The notes beneath the pieces were generated by a model. That model searched no databases. It was not told the DNA's origin and saw only the letters and a list, made by a program, of their open reading frames with translations. A DNA stretch of 33,642 nt from a virus: positions 1 to 33,642 of the IMG/VR virus record IMGVR_UViG_3300032235_000290. One strand, written 5' to 3'. Shown piece after piece: positions 2,422 to 32,545 of this stretch (its first letter is position 1; every line of letters begins with the position of its first letter). A program made the position numbers and the translations under genes.

Positions 2422-2819
2422 GTGAGCACCTGATTAGATCGCACGGATGCGGGAAGGTTGGCCAAAGGCAAGATGCCGTTCACATCATGCGCCAGCTCGA
2501 CATTGTTGCGCACTGGAGCAAGCGCCAGCATTTCCAGAGCATTGGCCATGCGTCCAATGCTGTCCAATGCCTGCACAGCTTTCTGGTCTGCTGTGCCTGC
2601 GTTGATGGCGGCATCTTTCGCCAAGCTGACAATCTGCGATAGAGCCTCATTGGCTGCGGCTTGTCCTTGGCCAGCCTGAATCTCGATGCCAGGCGTGTCG
2701 CTGGATGGAGAGACCTGGTCAGCAACTTTGAACAATTGCTCAAACTGCCTGATCTGCTCCTGGTTTTTCAGGAACGTCGCAAGCTGGTCGCGTGTGAGGT
2801 TGAGCTTTTGCGTTGCCAT
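2406..2819 (-). CDS. Helical protein directly after the gp10-type gene
   Basis: 137 residues. It starts in a TGATG overlap with the stop of the stabilisation-protein gene. Residues 8-35 (TRDQLATFLKNQEQIRQFEQ and onward) and 50-105 (Ala-rich, with heptad-like hydrophobics) predict alpha-helix or coiled coil; the C-terminus is short and polar. In P22 this slot encodes the tail needle gp26, a 233-residue trimeric coiled coil. This protein is much shorter and lacks obvious needle repeats, so an equivalent role is only a positional guess. No enzyme motif or membrane segment is visible. Confidence 0.75.
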   Translation of the reverse strand: MATQKLNLTRDQLATFLKNQEQIRQFEQLFKVADQVSPSSDTPGIEIQAGQGQAAANEALSQIVSLAKDAAINAGTADQKAVQALDSIGRMANALEMLALAPVRNNVELAHDVNGILPLANLPASVRSNQVLTWLSM

Positions 2820-4228
2820 CAGAAGGCCAATGGCTCGATCTGAGCCTCAAGACGGATGAAGGACAGGTGCGCTTGACTGTCGCCACGGAAGCGCTGAATG
2901 CGCCAGTTCCTCATGTGGCCCTGCTGAAACCATGCCAAACGCTTTTGGCTGTTGCCTGTGGTGCCGACACGGATGCCACGGTCTTGGCTCCATGCTTTGC
3001 CGTCCAGGCTGTAGCTGGTGGTGATGATCGGGTCAACACCAAGCGCCACGCTGCCGGTCAGGCTGACAAGCTCTAGCTCGTTGAAGATCGCACCGTTGCT
3101 CTCGTTGTAGACGATCAGCGTGCCAAACTCCCAGCGAACGATCTGGCCCCAGTGGCTGCTGATGTTGTCCACCAGGTAGCCGATGGCGCTGGACTGTGGG
3201 TCACCGATCAGCCACTTGTCGTAGGCCCAGACCAAGTTTCGTGCGCGGTATTGGCTGAAGCCGACCTGGCTGGTACTCAGGGTGAACCAGACCTGTTGCT
3301 GAAGCGCTGTTGATGCGGCTGCGTCATAAACCAGTGTGCGGTCTGGCAGGTGCACATACAGGTGCTCGTGGGCTTTGTCGTTGCGTGCTTCCAGCTTTAC
3401 GGTGGCCAGTTGCGCTTCGGTGTAGTTCAGCAGCAGCTCGTCGATCTCTTGCGTGCTGATCTTTTGGGCTGTGGCATTCGCGCCCATGTAGATGCCTGGC
3501 GCTTCGTTGCGGCCAGAGCCAAGGAAGGCGATCATATCCATGAACACGCAACAGCCAAATGTGCCAATGACACCCTTTGTGACCTGTGCGCCATCGATGC
3601 GCTGAAATGGGAAAAACTCGCCGCCAACGTTGTCAAAAACCTCGATGGTGTTGCGGTTCAGTGCATAGACCTCATTGCGCAGTTTGAGCAGAGCCACCAC
3701 TGGGTCGGGGTCAACTTCGCTGGAGCCGTACTTCAGTGGGTTGACCTGGGTCGGGTCGGACAGCTCTGTCACGATCAGGCTGGTGCCGTCGGTGGTCATG
3801 AAGTAGCCATCTACCCAGACCACGTCCAGCACGACGCCAAGGTCGGGGTCGGTGACTTGCACCAGGCCAAGCGAGCTGCTCCAGTAGTACAAGCGGCCAC
3901 CAGACGCGATGGCCAGACGGTCGAAGCTGTAGTCGAGCGTCACCAGGGTATTGACGGGGCCACCAACGTCGCCTAGCACGGTCACAGCGCCATTGCTGGC
4001 CACGGTCACCAGCTTGGTTCCCATGACCCGATAGCAGACGCCGTTCCAGTTGATGCCGCCACGGTCGATGCCTGGGCCGGTGCCGTTGCCGACGATGCCG
4101 TCACCAGGACGCAGAAAACCAGCACTGATGCCGGACTGCTTTGGGACTGGCACCAGGTTGACCGGATACGACGTGCGCAGGTCTGGCCCGTTGTCAGCAA
4201 AGATGCCGTTGAGGATTGGAATCTGCAT
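2819..4228 (-). CDS. Packaged-DNA stabilisation protein, P22 gp10 type (tail hub)
   Basis: 469 residues, close to P22 gp10 (472). In P22, gp10 hexamers bind below gp4 and plug the portal after packaging, holding DNA in and providing the attachment point for needle and tailspikes. Supporting features are the N-terminus MQIPILNGIFADNGPDLRTS with YPVNLVPVPK. The central part has WD/propeller-like repeats (LVTLDYSFDRLAIASGGRLY, VVWVDGYFMTTDG, NRNTIEVFDNVGGEFFPFQR), matching the Phage_stabilise family. The order gp4-type then gp10-type matches P22, although three or four other genes lie between them here. The ribosome binding site (GGTGAG) is moderate. Confidence 0.92.
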   Translation of the reverse strand: MQIPILNGIFADNGPDLRTSYPVNLVPVPKQSGISAGFLRPGDGIVGNGTGPGIDRGGINWNGVCYRVMGTKLVTVASNGAVTVLGDVGGPVNTLVTLDYSFDRLAIASGGRLYYWSSSLGLVQVTDPDLGVVLDVVWVDGYFMTTDGTSLIVTELSDPTQVNPLKYGSSEVDPDPVVALLKLRNEVYALNRNTIEVFDNVGGEFFPFQRIDGAQVTKGVIGTFGCCVFMDMIAFLGSGRNEAPGIYMGANATAQKISTQEIDELLLNYTEAQLATVKLEARNDKAHEHLYVHLPDRTLVYDAAASTALQQQVWFTLSTSQVGFSQYRARNLVWAYDKWLIGDPQSSAIGYLVDNISSHWGQIVRWEFGTLIVYNESNGAIFNELELVSLTGSVALGVDPIITTSYSLDGKAWSQDRGIRVGTTGNSQKRLAWFQQGHMRNWRIQRFRGDSQAHLSFIRLEAQIEPLAF

Positions 4229-5945: not shown

Positions 5946-6428
5946 TTAGTTGAACTGGAGAGGGCCGTCTGGGCCAACGTCGACAGGGTTGACGGGTGGA
6001 CGGATGAACGGGTTGTCGTAGACGCGCCATGGCTTGTTGCCAGCGCCAGCAGGCATGGTGGCCGGGAGCTGTTGCTCTGGCGGCATGGCGGCACGCTGCA
6101 GCAGTGTGTTGTAGCTGTCCTTGGCCACGGCCTTGGTTTCAGGCATCACCACCTTGCCATAGCCAGGTGCAATGCGAACAGCGCCATTCGTGATGATCGC
6201 TTCATTCGCCCAGTCAGGCACCAGCGTCGGCTCGTCCAGATCGCTGTCTTGTGGGCTTCCTGGCAGTGGGTAGCCCAAGCGGATACCTTTGCCGTTCCAG
6301 TCGGCCATCATGGCGTCTATGCGACGCATGGCGGATTGCAGTTGCTCCGGCTGCAGGTCGAAGACATAGGACGCAAGGCCGATCTCTTCAAAGGCCGCCG
6401 CAACGAATTGGCGCTTGCTGTAACCCAT
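5946..6428 (-). CDS. Tail accessory factor, P22 gp4 type
   Basis: 160 residues compared with 166 in P22 gp4. In P22, twelve gp4 copies bind the portal ring after packaging and form the upper tail hub on which gp10 assembles; gp4 also has peptidoglycan-hydrolase activity. The N-terminal helical region (YSKRQFVAAAFEEIGLASYV, then LQPEQLQSAMRRIDAMMADW) matches the family's characteristic start. The C-terminus is Pro-rich. GGAGG lies 6 bases before the ATG. The gene follows coat and three small genes, consistent with P22 order. Confidence 0.9.
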   Translation of the reverse strand: MGYSKRQFVAAAFEEIGLASYVFDLQPEQLQSAMRRIDAMMADWNGKGIRLGYPLPGSPQDSDLDEPTLVPDWANEAIITNGAVRIAPGYGKVVMPETKAVAKDSYNTLLQRAAMPPEQQLPATMPAGAGNKPWRVYDNPFIRPPVNPVDVGPDGPLQFN

Positions 6429-26954: not shown

Positions 26955-28499
26955 TCAATAAGCATTGAGCGTTGCACGTTTCCACGTATTCGCGCCAATG
27001 CAGACATAAATGTAATTTGTGTCCCAAACAATCTGCCCAACCGTTCCAGTGGCATTGCTTGCAAGCGTTTCAGCTTCGGCAATTCGGAGTCGTGTTGAAA
27101 CACTTGGCTCACCAATGACTACTTCATCTTCACTCAATGTTAAGACGTTTTTTGGAACAGCGCCACCCTTGCGAATAACTAAATCTCCAGGGGAGCCAAC
27201 TGCACTGCTGGTTCCGCAAGAAATTCTCTCCCACAAGTTTCCGGCGTAACCTCGGCTGTCCACGGCTGTCTTGACATCAACTCCAGCCTGCGCAGTAACT
27301 GGTGTGATCAGATGGGCGTACTGATTCGGCTGTGTGACTTTGTCGTGCTGGAATGTTGCGTACTCTGGCTGTACGTTATTGACGTTTCCAAACTCACTTG
27401 CTTGCCAACCATGAAGCGCAGTAGGCGTCCCATTGTTGAGCGCAAGGCAACTCGAAACTCCGCTTGTGAAAACGCCATCGGAAGGAACAATTGATGCGCC
27501 TTGCCAGCAGAATCCCCAAGCATCGCCAGTGCTGACAATTCTTACAGGGTATTGAACCTCGATTGGGTTGTTGATCGTGTTTTGGTTGAGAACGATGGTC
27601 GTGTCATAAACAGGATAAGGCGGGCTTCCCTGGGGCGTTACAACAAGCAAAAATTTTGAGTTGTAAGAAATTCTGCCAGTCACTCCATATTGGTCTGCTT
27701 GGTTTTCCGACTCACACCCTTCGATCAAGATGTTAATGCCGGTAGAAACGCGACAGAACGCTGTTGCGCACTTATAACCAGAGGTTACGCGGCGGAGTTG
27801 AAGTTGGTTTGCAACAACGATGTCAACGGCAATTTCATCAACAACAATCCCGCCGTTTTCAATGACACTGTATTGGGCTGCATTGCCAGAGTTAAGTACA
27901 AAACCAACCGACCCAGCAACATCTCTGGCCCAAATAGTAAACTGTCTGAAAATTTCACCATCGGTCTGATTGTTTGGAGTAGCAAGACCCAAAGTCCCCC
28001 ACTGAACCGCAACTGCACAAAAATCAATGTTGAAAAATTCAAACGTGTTTCCGGCAGACGCGATTTGATTGACGTTTGACGTGGTCAGGAAGATACCAGT
28101 CATGCCAGTTGCACCATTGGCATCCAGCGTCATGCCGTTAAGCGTGAAGTGTCGGGTATTAAAAACACTCAAAATGGTTGAGTTGTTTGCACCGTCCCAT
28201 TTCAACTTTGTGCCAGTTTCGACTGTTTGAGAGACAATCTCTCGCTCTCCATAAACGCCTTGCATCTTGACGCCAGTTCTTGCCTCAATCGTGTCTGTGA
28301 TTCGATAGACGCCAGATGGGAACCAAACCACACCACCTTTTTGACTTTCGGCAAGGTCAATGGCTGATTGAATCTGGCTCGTGACATCAAGCGATCCAGT
28401 TCTGGTCAAGACATCGTTAATTTCCGCAGGAGTCAAGAAGTCCAATACGTTGATTGGCGCTCCTTGGATCATCGAGTAGCTTGCTTTTATAAGTGACAT
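26955..28499 (-). CDS. Tailspike with beta-helix (pectate-lyase-like) domain
   Basis: 514 residues. It likely binds and perhaps degrades host surface polysaccharide. After a short N-terminal part (SYSMIQGAPINVLDFLTPAE), the QSAIDLAESQKGGVVWFPSG then VYRITDTIEARTGVKMQGVY segment is the standard entrance of right-handed parallel beta-helix proteins (Pectate_lyase_3/GH55-like). Repeated beta rungs run to about residue 400. The C-terminus (LASNATGTVGQIVWDTNYIY, then VCIGANTWKRATL) is a common fibre-end cap. No P22-type head-binding domain is present. That domain is found as a separate gene two genes upstream, at 29004-29489. No catalytic residues can be assigned by eye. Confidence 0.88.
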   Translation of the reverse strand: MSLIKASYSMIQGAPINVLDFLTPAEINDVLTRTGSLDVTSQIQSAIDLAESQKGGVVWFPSGVYRITDTIEARTGVKMQGVYGEREIVSQTVETGTKLKWDGANNSTILSVFNTRHFTLNGMTLDANGATGMTGIFLTTSNVNQIASAGNTFEFFNIDFCAVAVQWGTLGLATPNNQTDGEIFRQFTIWARDVAGSVGFVLNSGNAAQYSVIENGGIVVDEIAVDIVVANQLQLRRVTSGYKCATAFCRVSTGINILIEGCESENQADQYGVTGRISYNSKFLLVVTPQGSPPYPVYDTTIVLNQNTINNPIEVQYPVRIVSTGDAWGFCWQGASIVPSDGVFTSGVSSCLALNNGTPTALHGWQASEFGNVNNVQPEYATFQHDKVTQPNQYAHLITPVTAQAGVDVKTAVDSRGYAGNLWERISCGTSSAVGSPGDLVIRKGGAVPKNVLTLSEDEVVIGEPSVSTRLRIAEAETLASNATGTVGQIVWDTNYIYVCIGANTWKRATLNAY

Positions 28500-28513
28500 G
28501 ATGAATCTCTTTC

Positions 28514-28993
28514 TTAAACAGAATATTGTGCGCTGAATCGCACAGAACGAGAGTTGGCAATTACAGATGACTGGTCGTAATAACGAATGAGCAACGATCC
28601 AGAATTTCCATTGATACCAACGCTGAAACCTGTTGCAACAGTTTCTCTACCGCCACCGCCCCAATTGTTATTTGATGCAGCGACTGGAAGAGTGAGCAAC
28701 AAATCTCCAGTTCCAGTCCCGGCATCAACAATTGTCACAACACCACGCACAAAAACAGTATTACCGACAATCGTGTAAGTTCCAGTAAAAGTAGAACTGG
28801 TGATTGTTCCAGATTGCGCAGTAACTGTTGGCGACCAATTTCCCTCCTCATAATCATCAAGCAACTCACTTGTGCCTGTGCCGGATGTGGCAGAAAAGTC
28901 GATGCCTTTGCCCGCCGTCCCAATGACGAGGTTGCCGTCAACGATAGTTTGATCGCCGGTGCGTGTTGATGGGAATCCAACTGTCTTGAGCAT
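28514..28993 (-). CDS. Short tail-fibre-like protein
   Basis: 159 residues with an AAGGAG site. The N-terminal motif TGDQTIVDGNLVIGTAGKGI and then DFSATSGTGTSELLDDYEEG belongs to a widespread fibre tip module ('n..ig..gkgIdFsa......LddYEeGtwtP'). The following GTYTIVGNTVFVRGVVTIVD is a typical beta-rich tail. It is probably a second receptor-binding or linker subunit mounted on the adaptor protein encoded just upstream. Its exact partner is unknown. Confidence 0.83.
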   Translation of the reverse strand: MLKTVGFPSTRTGDQTIVDGNLVIGTAGKGIDFSATSGTGTSELLDDYEEGNWSPTVTAQSGTITSSTFTGTYTIVGNTVFVRGVVTIVDAGTGTGDLLLTLPVAASNNNWGGGGRETVATGFSVGINGNSGSLLIRYYDQSSVIANSRSVRFSAQYSV

Positions 28994-29003
28994 TTCGGTC
29001 TCC

Positions 29004-29489
29004 TTAAATCAAGAATTCAATCACCGAGGTGACGGGTGGCGCTTCTGAGAATGTCACATTACCGCCAGCCACTGTATAGGTGTTTTGGTTCTGATACACG
29101 CCGTTGATATAGATTGCTTTTGGCGCAGATGAAACAGGAAAAATAGTTTGTGTTCCGTTTCCAGTTGCATTGATTGGAGCGAATCCATTGCCAGACAAGT
29201 TTTCGTTCAATGATGAATAAATCGTGCTGCCGTTCCTGTTCATCACTCTGATGCTGTAATCGCTGCTCACATAAAAACGAGCAGGCGTTCCATTGCGTGA
29301 TGGGTAGCCACCAAGCGTGCGGATAGGCTGAGGCGCTGCAATAGTCAGCGCCGCATCCCAATAAACGTTGATCGGATTTGTCTGTGGGTCTAGATTTGCA
29401 GATCCAATCCAGATATATCCAGCCTCAAGAGGTTGACCATCAATGTCTGCGAAGACTGGATATGGTGGATTGACTTCAATTGCGGACAT
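29004..29489 (-). CDS. Head-binding domain protein, P22 tailspike N-terminal type
   Basis: 161 residues. Residues 1-105 match the P22 tailspike head-binding domain: NPPYPVFADIDGQPLEAGYI, then WIGSANLDPQTNPINVYWDA, QPIRTLGGYPSRNGTPARFY, VMNRNGSTIYSS. In P22 this domain joins the spike to gp4/gp10. Here it is followed only by about 55 residues (QTIFPVSSAPKAIYINGVYQ, then GGNVTFSEAPPVTSVIEFL), a small beta module common in fibres. It has no receptor-binding or enzyme domain, so it is probably an adaptor to which the separate fibre and beta-helix proteins attach. It starts in a TAATG overlap with the ejection-protein stop. Confidence 0.87.
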   Translation of the reverse strand: MSAIEVNPPYPVFADIDGQPLEAGYIWIGSANLDPQTNPINVYWDAALTIAAPQPIRTLGGYPSRNGTPARFYVSSDYSIRVMNRNGSTIYSSLNENLSGNGFAPINATGNGTQTIFPVSSAPKAIYINGVYQNQNTYTVAGGNVTFSEAPPVTSVIEFLI

Positions 29490-32400
29490 TACTGGTTCTC
29501 CTGTTCAAATTGCTCCTGGGCCTGCAGCGATTGAACGATGAACTTCTCACGCGCACTCATTTCGCGTGGGAGTTTCACCGCATCGGCAAACTTTTGGAAA
29601 GATTGTGACATCAAGACGGCCTTTACGGTAGCCTTTGACGGGTTGCTGTTGGTGGAAACGGCCTCAACAGCAAGGCGCTGGAACTCAGGCGAAGCGATCA
29701 GATCGTCGGCAGCCTTGAGGGCGTTTGTCTTGCCCTTGGTCAGTGCTGCGGTCAAACCGGATGCAATACCAGCACCAGGCAGGCCGACAAGGCTTGTGGC
29801 TGCCTCGATGGGCACACCGACGGCTGCACGCTTGGCCAGGCCGTAGATGTTCGACAGCATGTTGTCAGCGCCCTGCAGCTCCTGCTGGACTGCTTGGATG
29901 CGGCCAGTAGTGATGCGCTCGCGGGTGGCCTTGCTGACGTTGCTGGACACACGGTATAGGTCGGACAGCTGCTTGCGTGCAGGCTGTGGGAGGTTGGCCA
30001 TCAGCGCAGCATAGGCTTGCTTGTTGGCCAGCAGGCCCTCGTACCACTTGGCGTAGGTGTTGAAGTTCAGCGTGCCATTTTGTGTGGCCTTGCCGAATGC
30101 GGTGTTCAACGATGAGGCTGTGACTGCCTGGCGCATGTCCTTCGGGATCGCGGTCAGAATTTTGGCCAGCTTGTCGGCGTCGCCTTTGGACAGGGACATG
30201 GTGGCCGACTCCAGCTTACTGACCAGGCTTTGATCGAGCTGACGGCCAAACAGGGAAGTCATGTCATCCTCAAAACCCTTGCGCATCTGCACGAGGCTTT
30301 TGGCCAAGCGGTAGCTTTCGCCTTGGCCAGCTGTCTGCGCCAACGCGAACTGGTCGTCGTCGATCAGTCGATAGAGCTGCTTTGCAAGACCGGTGTCAGC
30401 ATCAGCAAACGGGCCAGCCTGGCGTGCAGCAGCGCCAACGTCGCGCCGGACGTCGTCGATCAGGGCATAGGTCGGGGCACGGGTGCCAATGACGTTGCCT
30501 GCATCGTCCTTGATGGGCTTAGGCGTCAGCTTGCTGCGCACCATTTTTTCGAGTGAGGACAGGTTTTCTGGGCCATCCAGATCGTCGGCACGCTTCTGCA
30601 CAAAGTTCAGCACGTTGTCAGCCTGGCCACGGGTCTGCGATGGAATCTGCGTGCGCAGTGCCTTGTATGCGTCGTCGGCCTGGTTGGACAGGTTGGTCAC
30701 AGTCTGGTCGAGCTGCGTGCGCACGGACTGGTTGAGCCTGCTCAGGTCGGTTGTGCCGCCGATTTCGGTGATCAGGTTGTCGGCACGCTGGCCAACTTGC
30801 TCCAATCCTTTGATCTCGGATGCACGAGCCTGACTGCCAGGGATGGACTTCACCGCTTGGGCCAGCTCACGATAAGCCTGGTTTGAGGTCAGGTGGTCGG
30901 GCTGCAGGTATTCGTCAATGCCAAGGCGTCTGGCAGCCTCAAGAACTTTTGGATCGGGTGCGGCTTGGCCAGCCAGCACGGAAGTGGCGCGGGTTGCGCC
31001 CATGCCGCCCTCGGCAGCGGTGCGTGCGGTCGTGGCCAGCTCTTGCGGTGTCATCGCAGCAGCGGCAGGTGCAGCCGGTGGCGTGCCAGGCACGGCAGCA
31101 GGTTGAACTTCTGGCGCAGCAGCAGCAGCACGGACGGGTGCGCCGGGTGCCATCGCTGTGCCCATAGGAGCGCCAGCAGGGGCCGCAGGGCCAGCGGCAG
31201 GGGTAACGGGTGCACGTGCAGCACGGACGGCCTGGACGCCGCGCACAGCGGCAGGCAGGACGGGCGCGAGCACTGCGGTGGTAGCCACCTCGCCAGCGTC
31301 AAACTGACCGCCAGTTGCAGCCTGTGTGGCCTCGATGACGGCTTGGGTTGCACCAGCACCAACAGCCATGCCAGGGAGAGTTACTGCGCGGCCAGCAGGC
31401 GTGAAGGCAGCCAAAGCGCCAGCAGCACGTGGAATGTCGCTTACCTGGAAGCCAGGCTTGATGGCGTACATCTGGCCATCGATGGACGACTGCAGCACGA
31501 AGTTGCCCTTCTCGTCCTGGCTGACTTGCACGCCGGGAAAGTTGGACTGGATGACCTGCACAGTTTCCTGTGGGTTGGTCATCATGGTGCCTAAGGCCGA
31601 CTTGAAGCTGGACATGCTGAAGGTGTTGAGCTCCGGCATGCCTGCATAGTCCGGCAGCGCCTGGGTGGTGGGTGTTTCGCGCTCAGTGCCTGTGAAGGCC
31701 TCACGGATGCCACCCAAGACACCCAGGGACTCTGTGCCCTTGAGCTGCATGCCAGCCGGTGCACGCACCATGCCGTTCTTGACGTCGGCCTCCAAGTCCA
31801 TCATTTCCTGACGCGTCATGCGGCCTGTGTTGTAGGCATCCACAACGGTCGGTGGCAGCTCGGCAACCTGCGTACTGGCAGCCGTGCCTTGTGCTGGCGC
31901 AGGCTGTTGGCCACGCAAAGCAGCGCCACGAGGCAGCATAAGCACGCCAGATTTAACGTCGGCCTCAAAGTCTGCCGCCTCTTCAGGCGTCATCTGGCCG
32001 GAGCTGTAGGCGTTGAAGATGTTTTGGATCGAGCCAGGGGCCATAGCGCCACCAGCAGCAGCGCCAGCACCACCTCGGGCTGCCATAACGCGCTGAAAGG
32101 TACTGTCGCCACCTCCGGGGAGCGTGGCAGGCGTGGCGGCTTGCTCTTGGCCAACACCGGCAGTCACGCGCTCAATGTAGGACTTCGTGCGAGGCCCCCA
32201 GTTTTTGGGGTTGGTGCCGCCATGGTATTCGGCAGCGGCCAGCTTGATGTCGCCCTTGTTGCGCTGCAGCGATTCCTTGAGCAGCAGGCCAGCAGCCTCG
32301 GCTGCGTTTTGTGGGCTGAGGTAAGCATCGACACCGTACTTGTCCAGCACAGCCTTGCGTGTGGCAGGGATGATCTGGAACGGTGTCTTGGCGTTGGCCT

Positions 32401-32545
32401 CGGACACCTGGTCAGCATTGCTGCGCTCGCCATAAAGCAAGACAGACTTCAGCAGGCCAGAAGGCAGCCCGAGCTTTTGCTCAGTGCCAGCGGCCAGGTC
32501 AGACCAGAACGGGTCTTTGTAGCTGTTTGGGGCTTGTGTGGCCAT
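29489..32545 (-). CDS. Large DNA-ejection protein with N-terminal lytic transglycosylase domain (P22 gp16 position)
   Basis: 1018 residues. The N-terminal region has the lytic transglycosylase layout of phage internal virion proteins: catalytic Glu40 (LYGERSNADQVSEANA), FQIIPATRKAVL (56-67) and AEYHGGTNPKNWGPRTKSYI (105-124). Such enzymes open a path in peptidoglycan during genome entry. A long Ala/Gly/Pro-rich region (about 420-550) and two copies of a short motif (FNAYSSGQMTPEEAADFEAD and YNTGRMTRQEMMDLEADVKN) follow. The C-terminal 400 residues are helical. It lies in the gene position of P22 gp16, the last ejection protein before the tail fibre genes. AAGGA precedes the ATG. Confidence 0.88.
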   Translation of the reverse strand: MATQAPNSYKDPFWSDLAAGTEQKLGLPSGLLKSVLLYGERSNADQVSEANAKTPFQIIPATRKAVLDKYGVDAYLSPQNAAEAAGLLLKESLQRNKGDIKLAAAEYHGGTNPKNWGPRTKSYIERVTAGVGQEQAATPATLPGGGDSTFQRVMAARGGAGAAAGGAMAPGSIQNIFNAYSSGQMTPEEAADFEADVKSGVLMLPRGAALRGQQPAPAQGTAASTQVAELPPTVVDAYNTGRMTRQEMMDLEADVKNGMVRAPAGMQLKGTESLGVLGGIREAFTGTERETPTTQALPDYAGMPELNTFSMSSFKSALGTMMTNPQETVQVIQSNFPGVQVSQDEKGNFVLQSSIDGQMYAIKPGFQVSDIPRAAGALAAFTPAGRAVTLPGMAVGAGATQAVIEATQAATGGQFDAGEVATTAVLAPVLPAAVRGVQAVRAARAPVTPAAGPAAPAGAPMGTAMAPGAPVRAAAAAPEVQPAAVPGTPPAAPAAAAMTPQELATTARTAAEGGMGATRATSVLAGQAAPDPKVLEAARRLGIDEYLQPDHLTSNQAYRELAQAVKSIPGSQARASEIKGLEQVGQRADNLITEIGGTTDLSRLNQSVRTQLDQTVTNLSNQADDAYKALRTQIPSQTRGQADNVLNFVQKRADDLDGPENLSSLEKMVRSKLTPKPIKDDAGNVIGTRAPTYALIDDVRRDVGAAARQAGPFADADTGLAKQLYRLIDDDQFALAQTAGQGESYRLAKSLVQMRKGFEDDMTSLFGRQLDQSLVSKLESATMSLSKGDADKLAKILTAIPKDMRQAVTASSLNTAFGKATQNGTLNFNTYAKWYEGLLANKQAYAALMANLPQPARKQLSDLYRVSSNVSKATRERITTGRIQAVQQELQGADNMLSNIYGLAKRAAVGVPIEAATSLVGLPGAGIASGLTAALTKGKTNALKAADDLIASPEFQRLAVEAVSTNSNPSKATVKAVLMSQSFQKFADAVKLPREMSAREKFIVQSLQAQEQFEQENQ

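Follow-up and report, generated by a model that had tools for sequence, protein, structure and literature searches.

In the textbook example, phage P22, the tailspike combines anchor and receptor spike in a single chain. In group A of the KP34 phages, a short stand-alone T7-type anchor without an enzyme domain carries a C-terminal T4gp10-like domain, and a second, mostly beta-helical protein is encoded separately, with similarity restricted to a short N-terminal peptide, MALxxLV (Latka et al., 2019; PMC6872550, in the parts available). According to the same parts of that source, the adaptor gp37 of K1-5, SP6 and K1E carries two tailspikes by an N-terminal hepta- and undecapeptide (PMC6872550). 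XD2/XD3-type domains carry partner proteins in CBA120 and T4; for CBA120, the available sections describe a contractile tail, a long tailspike that bears three XD domains, and partners that bind via whole domains (PMC8825819). Shigella phage B2, a podophage of the Schitoviridae, has a two-protein tailspike, gp48/gp49, in which gp48 is an 83-kDa fibre and not a short adaptor in the accessible text (PMC11654681).

In the present study, the window, i.e. the whole stretch of DNA that was analysed, is the 33,642-base IMG/VR virus record IMGVR_UViG_3300032235_000290. Its putative receptor-binding genes are like those of KP34 group A in the short anchor, the T4gp10-like (XD) branch domain, recognised at moderate Z-scores, and the peptide-tagged, otherwise unrelated bodies. 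They differ from the KP34 lineage in that the anchor is P22-type with 161 aa, one fibre gene lies between, and all of the genes are adjacent. As far as group A is described in the parts cited, the window system would work in the same manner, outside that lineage. A separate adaptor and receptor proteins tagged with short N-terminal peptides are also found in K1-5, whereas gp37 belongs to a T7-like tail, both of its tailspikes are enzymes, and the peptides are others. The gp10-type jellyroll hub fold that carries partner tailspikes appears to be shared with the XD domains of CBA120 TSP4. With P22 gp9 and Sf6 gp14 the locus has in common the head-binding domain fold and the gp4/gp10 tail partners; in those phages, however, anchor and beta-helix are one chain, whereas here there are two genes, a hub domain and a fibre. 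A fixed socket with separately encoded, interchangeable spike parts, a design known in some phages, seems here to be present on a P22-type virus. The portions of the literature searched, from which subscription journals were largely absent, yielded no account of a P22-type head-binding adaptor that stands alone or of the MSLTKxSYSMI peptide reported below, and the available parts of the articles on PBR31 (PMC10975493) and Peru-2 (PMC13320782) describe no split adaptor.

Adaptor, fibre and beta-helix genes of the window

The window virus is a P22-type podovirus infecting bacteria. It encodes a portal (PF16510), a coat protein (PF11651), gp4-like (PF11650) and gp10-like (PF11134) proteins, and also scaffold and ejection-type proteins; homologues of both gp4 and gp10, the components of a P22-type tail machine, are thus present, and the gp10-like protein is the expected virion partner of the head-binding domain. 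Relatives of the adaptor were not found in 84,980 bacterial and archaeal genomes, which were scanned twice. Directly after the transglycosylase gene, there are three intact minus-strand ORFs, encoding adaptor, fibre and beta-helix. The features, with window coordinates, are:

2819..4228, minus strand: P22 gp10-like tail protein (PF11134 E 1.1e-36; Sf6 gp8 E 3.3e-32; P22 gp10 E 3.9e-31)
5946..6428, minus strand: P22 gp4-like tail accessory factor (PF11650 E 1.8e-14; P22 gp4 E 5.1e-11)
26955..28499, minus strand: beta-helix gene, ORF of 514 aa
26955..28454, minus strand: putative exchangeable receptor/enzyme body, beta-helix residues 16-514 and stop (PF12708; 68% identity to the L170/L171 tailspike)
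28455..28499, minus strand: conserved N-terminal peptide, proposed plug, beta-helix residues 1-15 (residue counts in 56 proteins)
28514..28993, minus strand: short fibre gene, ORF of 159 aa
29004..29489, minus strand: adaptor gene, stand-alone ORF of 161 aa
29007..29192, minus strand: XD / T4 gp10-like hub domain (DUF4183-like), adaptor residues 100-161, assigned by fold matches
29196..29471, minus strand: P22-type head-binding (anchor) domain, adaptor residues 7-98 (fold match to 1lkt; profile matches to Sf6 gp14 and P22 gp9)
29489..32545, minus strand: SLT transglycosylase / ejection protein, just upstream (PF01464 E 5.1e-5; phrog_6704, phrog_342)

Gaps of 10 nt (adaptor to fibre) and 14 nt (fibre to beta-helix) separate the three genes, each of which starts with an ATG of its own preceded by a purine-rich stretch. 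The fibre gene is in a different frame from the adaptor and beta-helix genes, therefore one stop or frameshift could not have split a single gene.

The adaptor has two domains, both accounted for within its 161 aa, and no receptor or enzyme domain. In the model, residues 7-98 match the head-binding domain of the P22 tailspike (1lkt) with a Z-score of 13.1 and an rmsd of 2.1 over 91 aligned residues, and the adaptor family profile finds Sf6 gp14 (E 3e-6) and P22 gp9 (E 1.3e-5). Profile and fold comparison were used because the match of PF09008 to the adaptor alone is weak (E 9e-4) and below the curated cut-off; a PDB search with the single adaptor sequence returned a chance match only. The T7-type anchor family PF03906 is not among the Pfam matches of the adaptor, the anchor being P22-type. 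The stand-alone 161-residue head-binding protein proposed in a first-pass annotation of this DNA is thus confirmed, with a second domain that had been overlooked. This second domain, residues 100-161, appears in the model to resemble XD/T4 gp10-type carrier domains. Its scores are moderate, with a Z-score of 8.2 to a chain of the B2 Gp48/Gp49 entry, 7.8 to residues 188-248 of CBA120 TSP4, 7.1 to the T7 proximal half fibre and 5.1 to T4 gp10, in a model of moderate confidence (mean pLDDT 75) and in a range (Z 5-8) that may reflect a mere common arrangement. PF13799 (DUF4183) matches the hub just under its cut-off (E 1.9e-5), and the adaptor sequence profile finds none of the XD-domain proteins matched by fold.

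The short fibre gene noted between adaptor and beta-helix genes in the first pass is confirmed as a separate ORF. Its product has a fairly conserved N-terminus, MLKTV, and stalk, and a variable head (residues 48-159); in a model with a pLDDT of 80, fold matches barely cover the first 40 residues. It may be a second receptor protein rather than part of one shaft.

The third gene product is, as judged from its sequence, a predicted pectate-lyase-like beta-helix, matching PF12708 just above the cut-off (E 2.8e-6, residues 34-91 only) and also tailspike PHROGs. As previously proposed, it has no head-binding domain. It does have a conserved N-terminal peptide of 11-15 residues, MSLTKxSYSMI, which had been missed. 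Among 56 distinct proteins, window included, M1 is conserved in 56, L3 in 56, T4 in 55, K5 in 55, S9 in 56, M10 in 56 and I11 in 53; the window protein itself has I at position 4. Similarity among the beta-helix proteins falls off after about residue 20. Among the matches listed, LTKxSYSMI is directly behind a start codon at 82 of 82 sites, the query having included the start codon, which favours such sites. To the question of whether the beta-helix has a virion-binding N-terminus of its own, the answer is therefore divided between a peptide that is present and a head-binding domain that is not. The peptide is best read as a plug docking on the adaptor, which refines the adaptor idea without refuting it.

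Two further parts of the window were observed. At 1-816, on the minus strand and running off the left end, there is a P22 gp7-type ejection protein (phrog_598 E 1.4e-33; PF25688 1.4e-5, below cut-off) with a C-terminal Peptidase_S74 intramolecular chaperone domain (PF13884 8.9e-11); Pseudomonas phage AH02 has a gene named 'intamolecular chaperon' in the corresponding neighbourhood. Immediately behind the beta-helix gene (window 26905-26657), and in many of the adaptor loci L001-L080, two kinds of small protein alternate. One has 82 aa, is phrog_6228 in the window and contains ...DRIEVVENG..., and the other has about 85-97 aa and ends in ...HLKTLPEFAGATDC. Possibly these are linked to the receptor cassette.

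Conserved attachment genes and exchanged receptor bodies

Relatives of the adaptor were collected by a scan of IMG/VR, from which the best 80 of at least 368 were kept; L081, which is the window itself in reverse, was left out. Genes in the loci were called by a simple ORF rule, with no gene finder. The single polypeptide of the P22 gp9 family was not found here: the ORFs are separate, and the adaptor is stand-alone in all 80 of these close relatives, its frame stopping within 6 nt of the match end. For gene order, the 72 loci with at least 1500 nt downstream were readable, and the 8 shorter ones were left out. The gene after the adaptor encodes a fibre, of the MLK type in 66 of the 72 and of the KISAL type in 6. 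Behind it, in 70 of 72, comes a long protein with an N-terminal SM[IV] motif, so that the three-gene order is kept, by a loose motif test (the strict residue counts come from the 56 distinct proteins above); L004 and L012 are without a peptide-tagged long protein. With this arrangement in 70 of 72 related loci, chance is not the explanation.

After removal of exact duplicate proteins, all 2016 adaptor pairs show similarity, as do 1454 of 1540 pairs for residues 1-60 of the beta-helix proteins, compared with 28 of 1540 for residues 101 to the end. The last 100 residues of the fibre are similar in 331 of 1653 pairs. The first-pass suggestion that relatives be searched for a conserved adaptor followed by variable fibre genes is thus borne out. 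Where adaptors are at least 95% identical, the beta-helix bodies have no detectable similarity in 12 of 15 pairs, nor the fibre tips in 9 of 12. At the DNA level, L020 and L032 are 91% identical over a stretch that begins shortly ahead of the adaptor and ends within the fibre, with no match in the fibre head; 41 nt are shared at the start of the beta-helix gene, the body is unmatched, and similarity resumes behind the gene. Between L054 and L074, 89% identity extends across the adaptor to about the fifth fibre codon. In these DNA and protein comparisons of loci with near-identical adaptors, the bodies are replaced and the sockets stay, demonstrating at the level of sequence an exchange of receptor bodies that does not touch the attachment gene. 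Exchangeable receptor modules had been predicted, and the prediction holds, with docking on the adaptor presumed.

The same body is also known in fused form. L170 and L171 encode identical single-chain tailspikes with a different anchor and neck before the body, and residues 137-631 of this tailspike align with residues 16-514 of the window beta-helix at 68% identity (340/499 columns). Residues 1-15 of the window protein occupy the place where the L170/L171 anchor ends, and the peptide is absent from the fused form. Judged by this alignment, modules have been swapped, in either direction, and the boundary is clean. In L102, L124, L160 and L167, head-binding domain, hub and beta-helix are in one chain, with a second, peptide-tagged beta-helix gene nearby. 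Single-chain relatives with a like head-binding domain are MW202475 (723 aa) and PfAn1 (580 aa), in which no hub was seen by eye and no peptide gene was found in the examined stretch. Fused relatives of the kind envisaged in the first pass therefore exist; the window copy, however, is not a broken version of them, because all 80 close relatives (best 80 of at least 368) are stand-alone and the junction at which the peptide takes the anchor's place is clean.

A KISAL-type fibre follows the hub-less fused tailspike in L170 (6246-7019) and L171 (3936-4709), so the presence of this fibre type does not depend on the hub. The idea that hub subtype dictates fibre type was rejected, since hubs that are almost identical accompany MLK fibres in some loci and KISAL fibres in others.

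Co-occurrence of hub and peptide

The peptide was also searched for independently, with at least 600 pattern matches, at least 270 of them confirmed, of which 80 were kept. The hub is encoded on the same strand in 71 of these 80 loci and on the other strand in none; among the 57 with at least 2.5 kb upstream, a count that leaves out the 23 of 80 with less, 56 have it. Most of the hub proteins (60 of 71) are short (<280 aa) and 11 are long. Most also fail the P22 head-binding profile and carry another anchor, therefore the link between hub and peptide holds across anchors. Between the hub and peptide genes, there is a KISAL fibre in 31 loci, KISAL with another ORF in 3, MLK in 9, other ORFs in 13 + 2 (many starting MLKV, by eye), and none in 5; the hub is behind the peptide gene in 8.

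As a control, 80 tailspike loci were selected by a neck of the single-chain kind, replacing an earlier control, selected by the MW202475 head-binding domain, that yielded 2 loci only. Hub and peptide were both present in 6, the hub only in 25, neither in 49, and the peptide without a hub in 0; the peptide is thus in 0 of 49 hub-less control loci. The Fisher p of 0.0025 overstates independence and is only a guide, since the loci are related and the control overlaps the other sets: four control loci are from contigs in the peptide set (L179, L180 and L185 among the 6 with both), and one overlaps the adaptor set. In addition, refinement of the hub profile made use of the peptide-selected loci, and a hub-bearing protein was the source of the control query. 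The 25 of 80 control loci with a hub only, some of them on short contigs, indicate that a hub does not always imply a MSLTKxSYSMI plug.

Several individual loci extend these observations. DSL-LC05 has a hub, a KISAL fibre and a peptide-tagged tailspike; the tailspike is not mentioned in the available parts of the Dishui Lake paper (PMC10611076). In L154 (sites 1634 and 3347) and L157 (sites 4007 and 5720), two tandem peptide-tagged beta-helix genes accompany a single hub gene, i.e. two plugs for one socket. The hub protein of L100 (237 aa) has two hub copies in tandem. Vibrio phage 1.253.O (L259; 1030-3414 and 5945-7327) appears, by eye, to encode a protein with two hub-like repeats, and its separate pectate-lyase gene starts MTTKVNNRMIDGATVNVLDFGA, a variant plug. 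In MW202640 (L260; 3750-6383 and 6564-8084), a hub-like domain lies in a long tail fibre with, by eye, a T7-type N-terminus, and a nearby gene starts MALTKVPLSLL, close to the KP34 MALxxLV pattern.

Proposed arrangement and alternative explanations

It is probable that the three genes encode an anchor-branch receptor-binding system of the KP34 group A kind in which the anchor is P22-type. An adaptor trimer would clamp the gp4/gp10 tail through the P22-type head-binding domain, and the C-terminal XD/gp10-like domain would form a small hub below it. A beta-helix trimer would plug into this hub by the conserved N-terminal peptide MSLTKxSYSMI and serve as an exchangeable spike, probably polysaccharide-binding or -cutting. 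The fibre would be a second exchangeable receptor protein, probably on the same hub, with an N-terminus that is mostly MLKTV and otherwise KISAL. Recombination would replace whole receptor bodies and leave the attachment point unchanged; conservation is limited to the adaptor, the fibre N-terminus and the plug peptide, so the bodies appear to be replaceable. Of the earlier view of three pieces of one spike, the three genes stand, and a single shaft is less certain.

The hub may instead serve the fibre and not the beta-helix. In such a serial arrangement, the hub would bind the fibre as a shaft and the beta-helix would dock on the fibre, giving one straight spike. The adaptor-fibre-beta-helix order in 70 of 72 loci and the fairly conserved fibre N-terminus and stalk are consistent with this, but five of the 71 hub-bearing peptide loci have no ORF of at least 90 aa between the hub and peptide genes. 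L120 and L123 being alike, these represent about four independent cases, in which the beta-helix seems able to manage without a fibre. In addition, the fibre head is highly variable, as a receptor tip would be but a docking surface would not, and a KISAL fibre is also found behind the hub-less fused tailspike of L170, making the serial spike unlikely. A little less likely again is that the peptide is a neck or trimer-starting element only, with the beta-helix unattached to the adaptor, either elsewhere or as a free enzyme. The NVLDYGA half of the conserved stretch does resemble VSVKDFGA, the start of single-chain beta-helices; however, LTKxSYSMI is right behind the start codon at all 82 sites among the matches listed (a position that the query favoured). 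The fused version of this body lacks it, L077 retains it ahead of a sequence other than the usual NVLDYGA start, and in the control it never occurs without a hub (0/49).

That an ancestral P22-like spike has broken, its parts being non-functional or reassembling by chance, is highly improbable. Single-chain relatives with a like head-binding domain (MW202475, PfAn1) and the fused form of the same body (L170/L171) would provide the ancestor, but the adaptor is stand-alone in 80 of 80 relatives (best 80 of at least 368), gene order is kept in 70 of 72, frames and starts are separate, and a peptide is in place of the anchor.

Beyond the anchor-branch system of the window, it is an even question whether the hub and MSLTKxSYSMI-type peptide form a portable socket-and-plug standard across unlike anchors, with the socket and plug DNA as islands targeted by recombination. 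The anchors concerned would be P22-type, a second type that is common among the loci selected by the peptide and, possibly, T7-type (MW202640). If this is so, receptor bodies would circulate as cassettes between phage groups with different tails.

The hub and the N-terminal peptide provide a two-part sequence signature by which anchors can be matched to receptor proteins in metagenomes, and because the proteins are small, docking can be tested directly. In place of the P22 single chain, a large group of environmental phages of the P22 type seems to rely on a fixed socket with plug-tagged spikes, a design that would explain fast receptor change with a constant tail.
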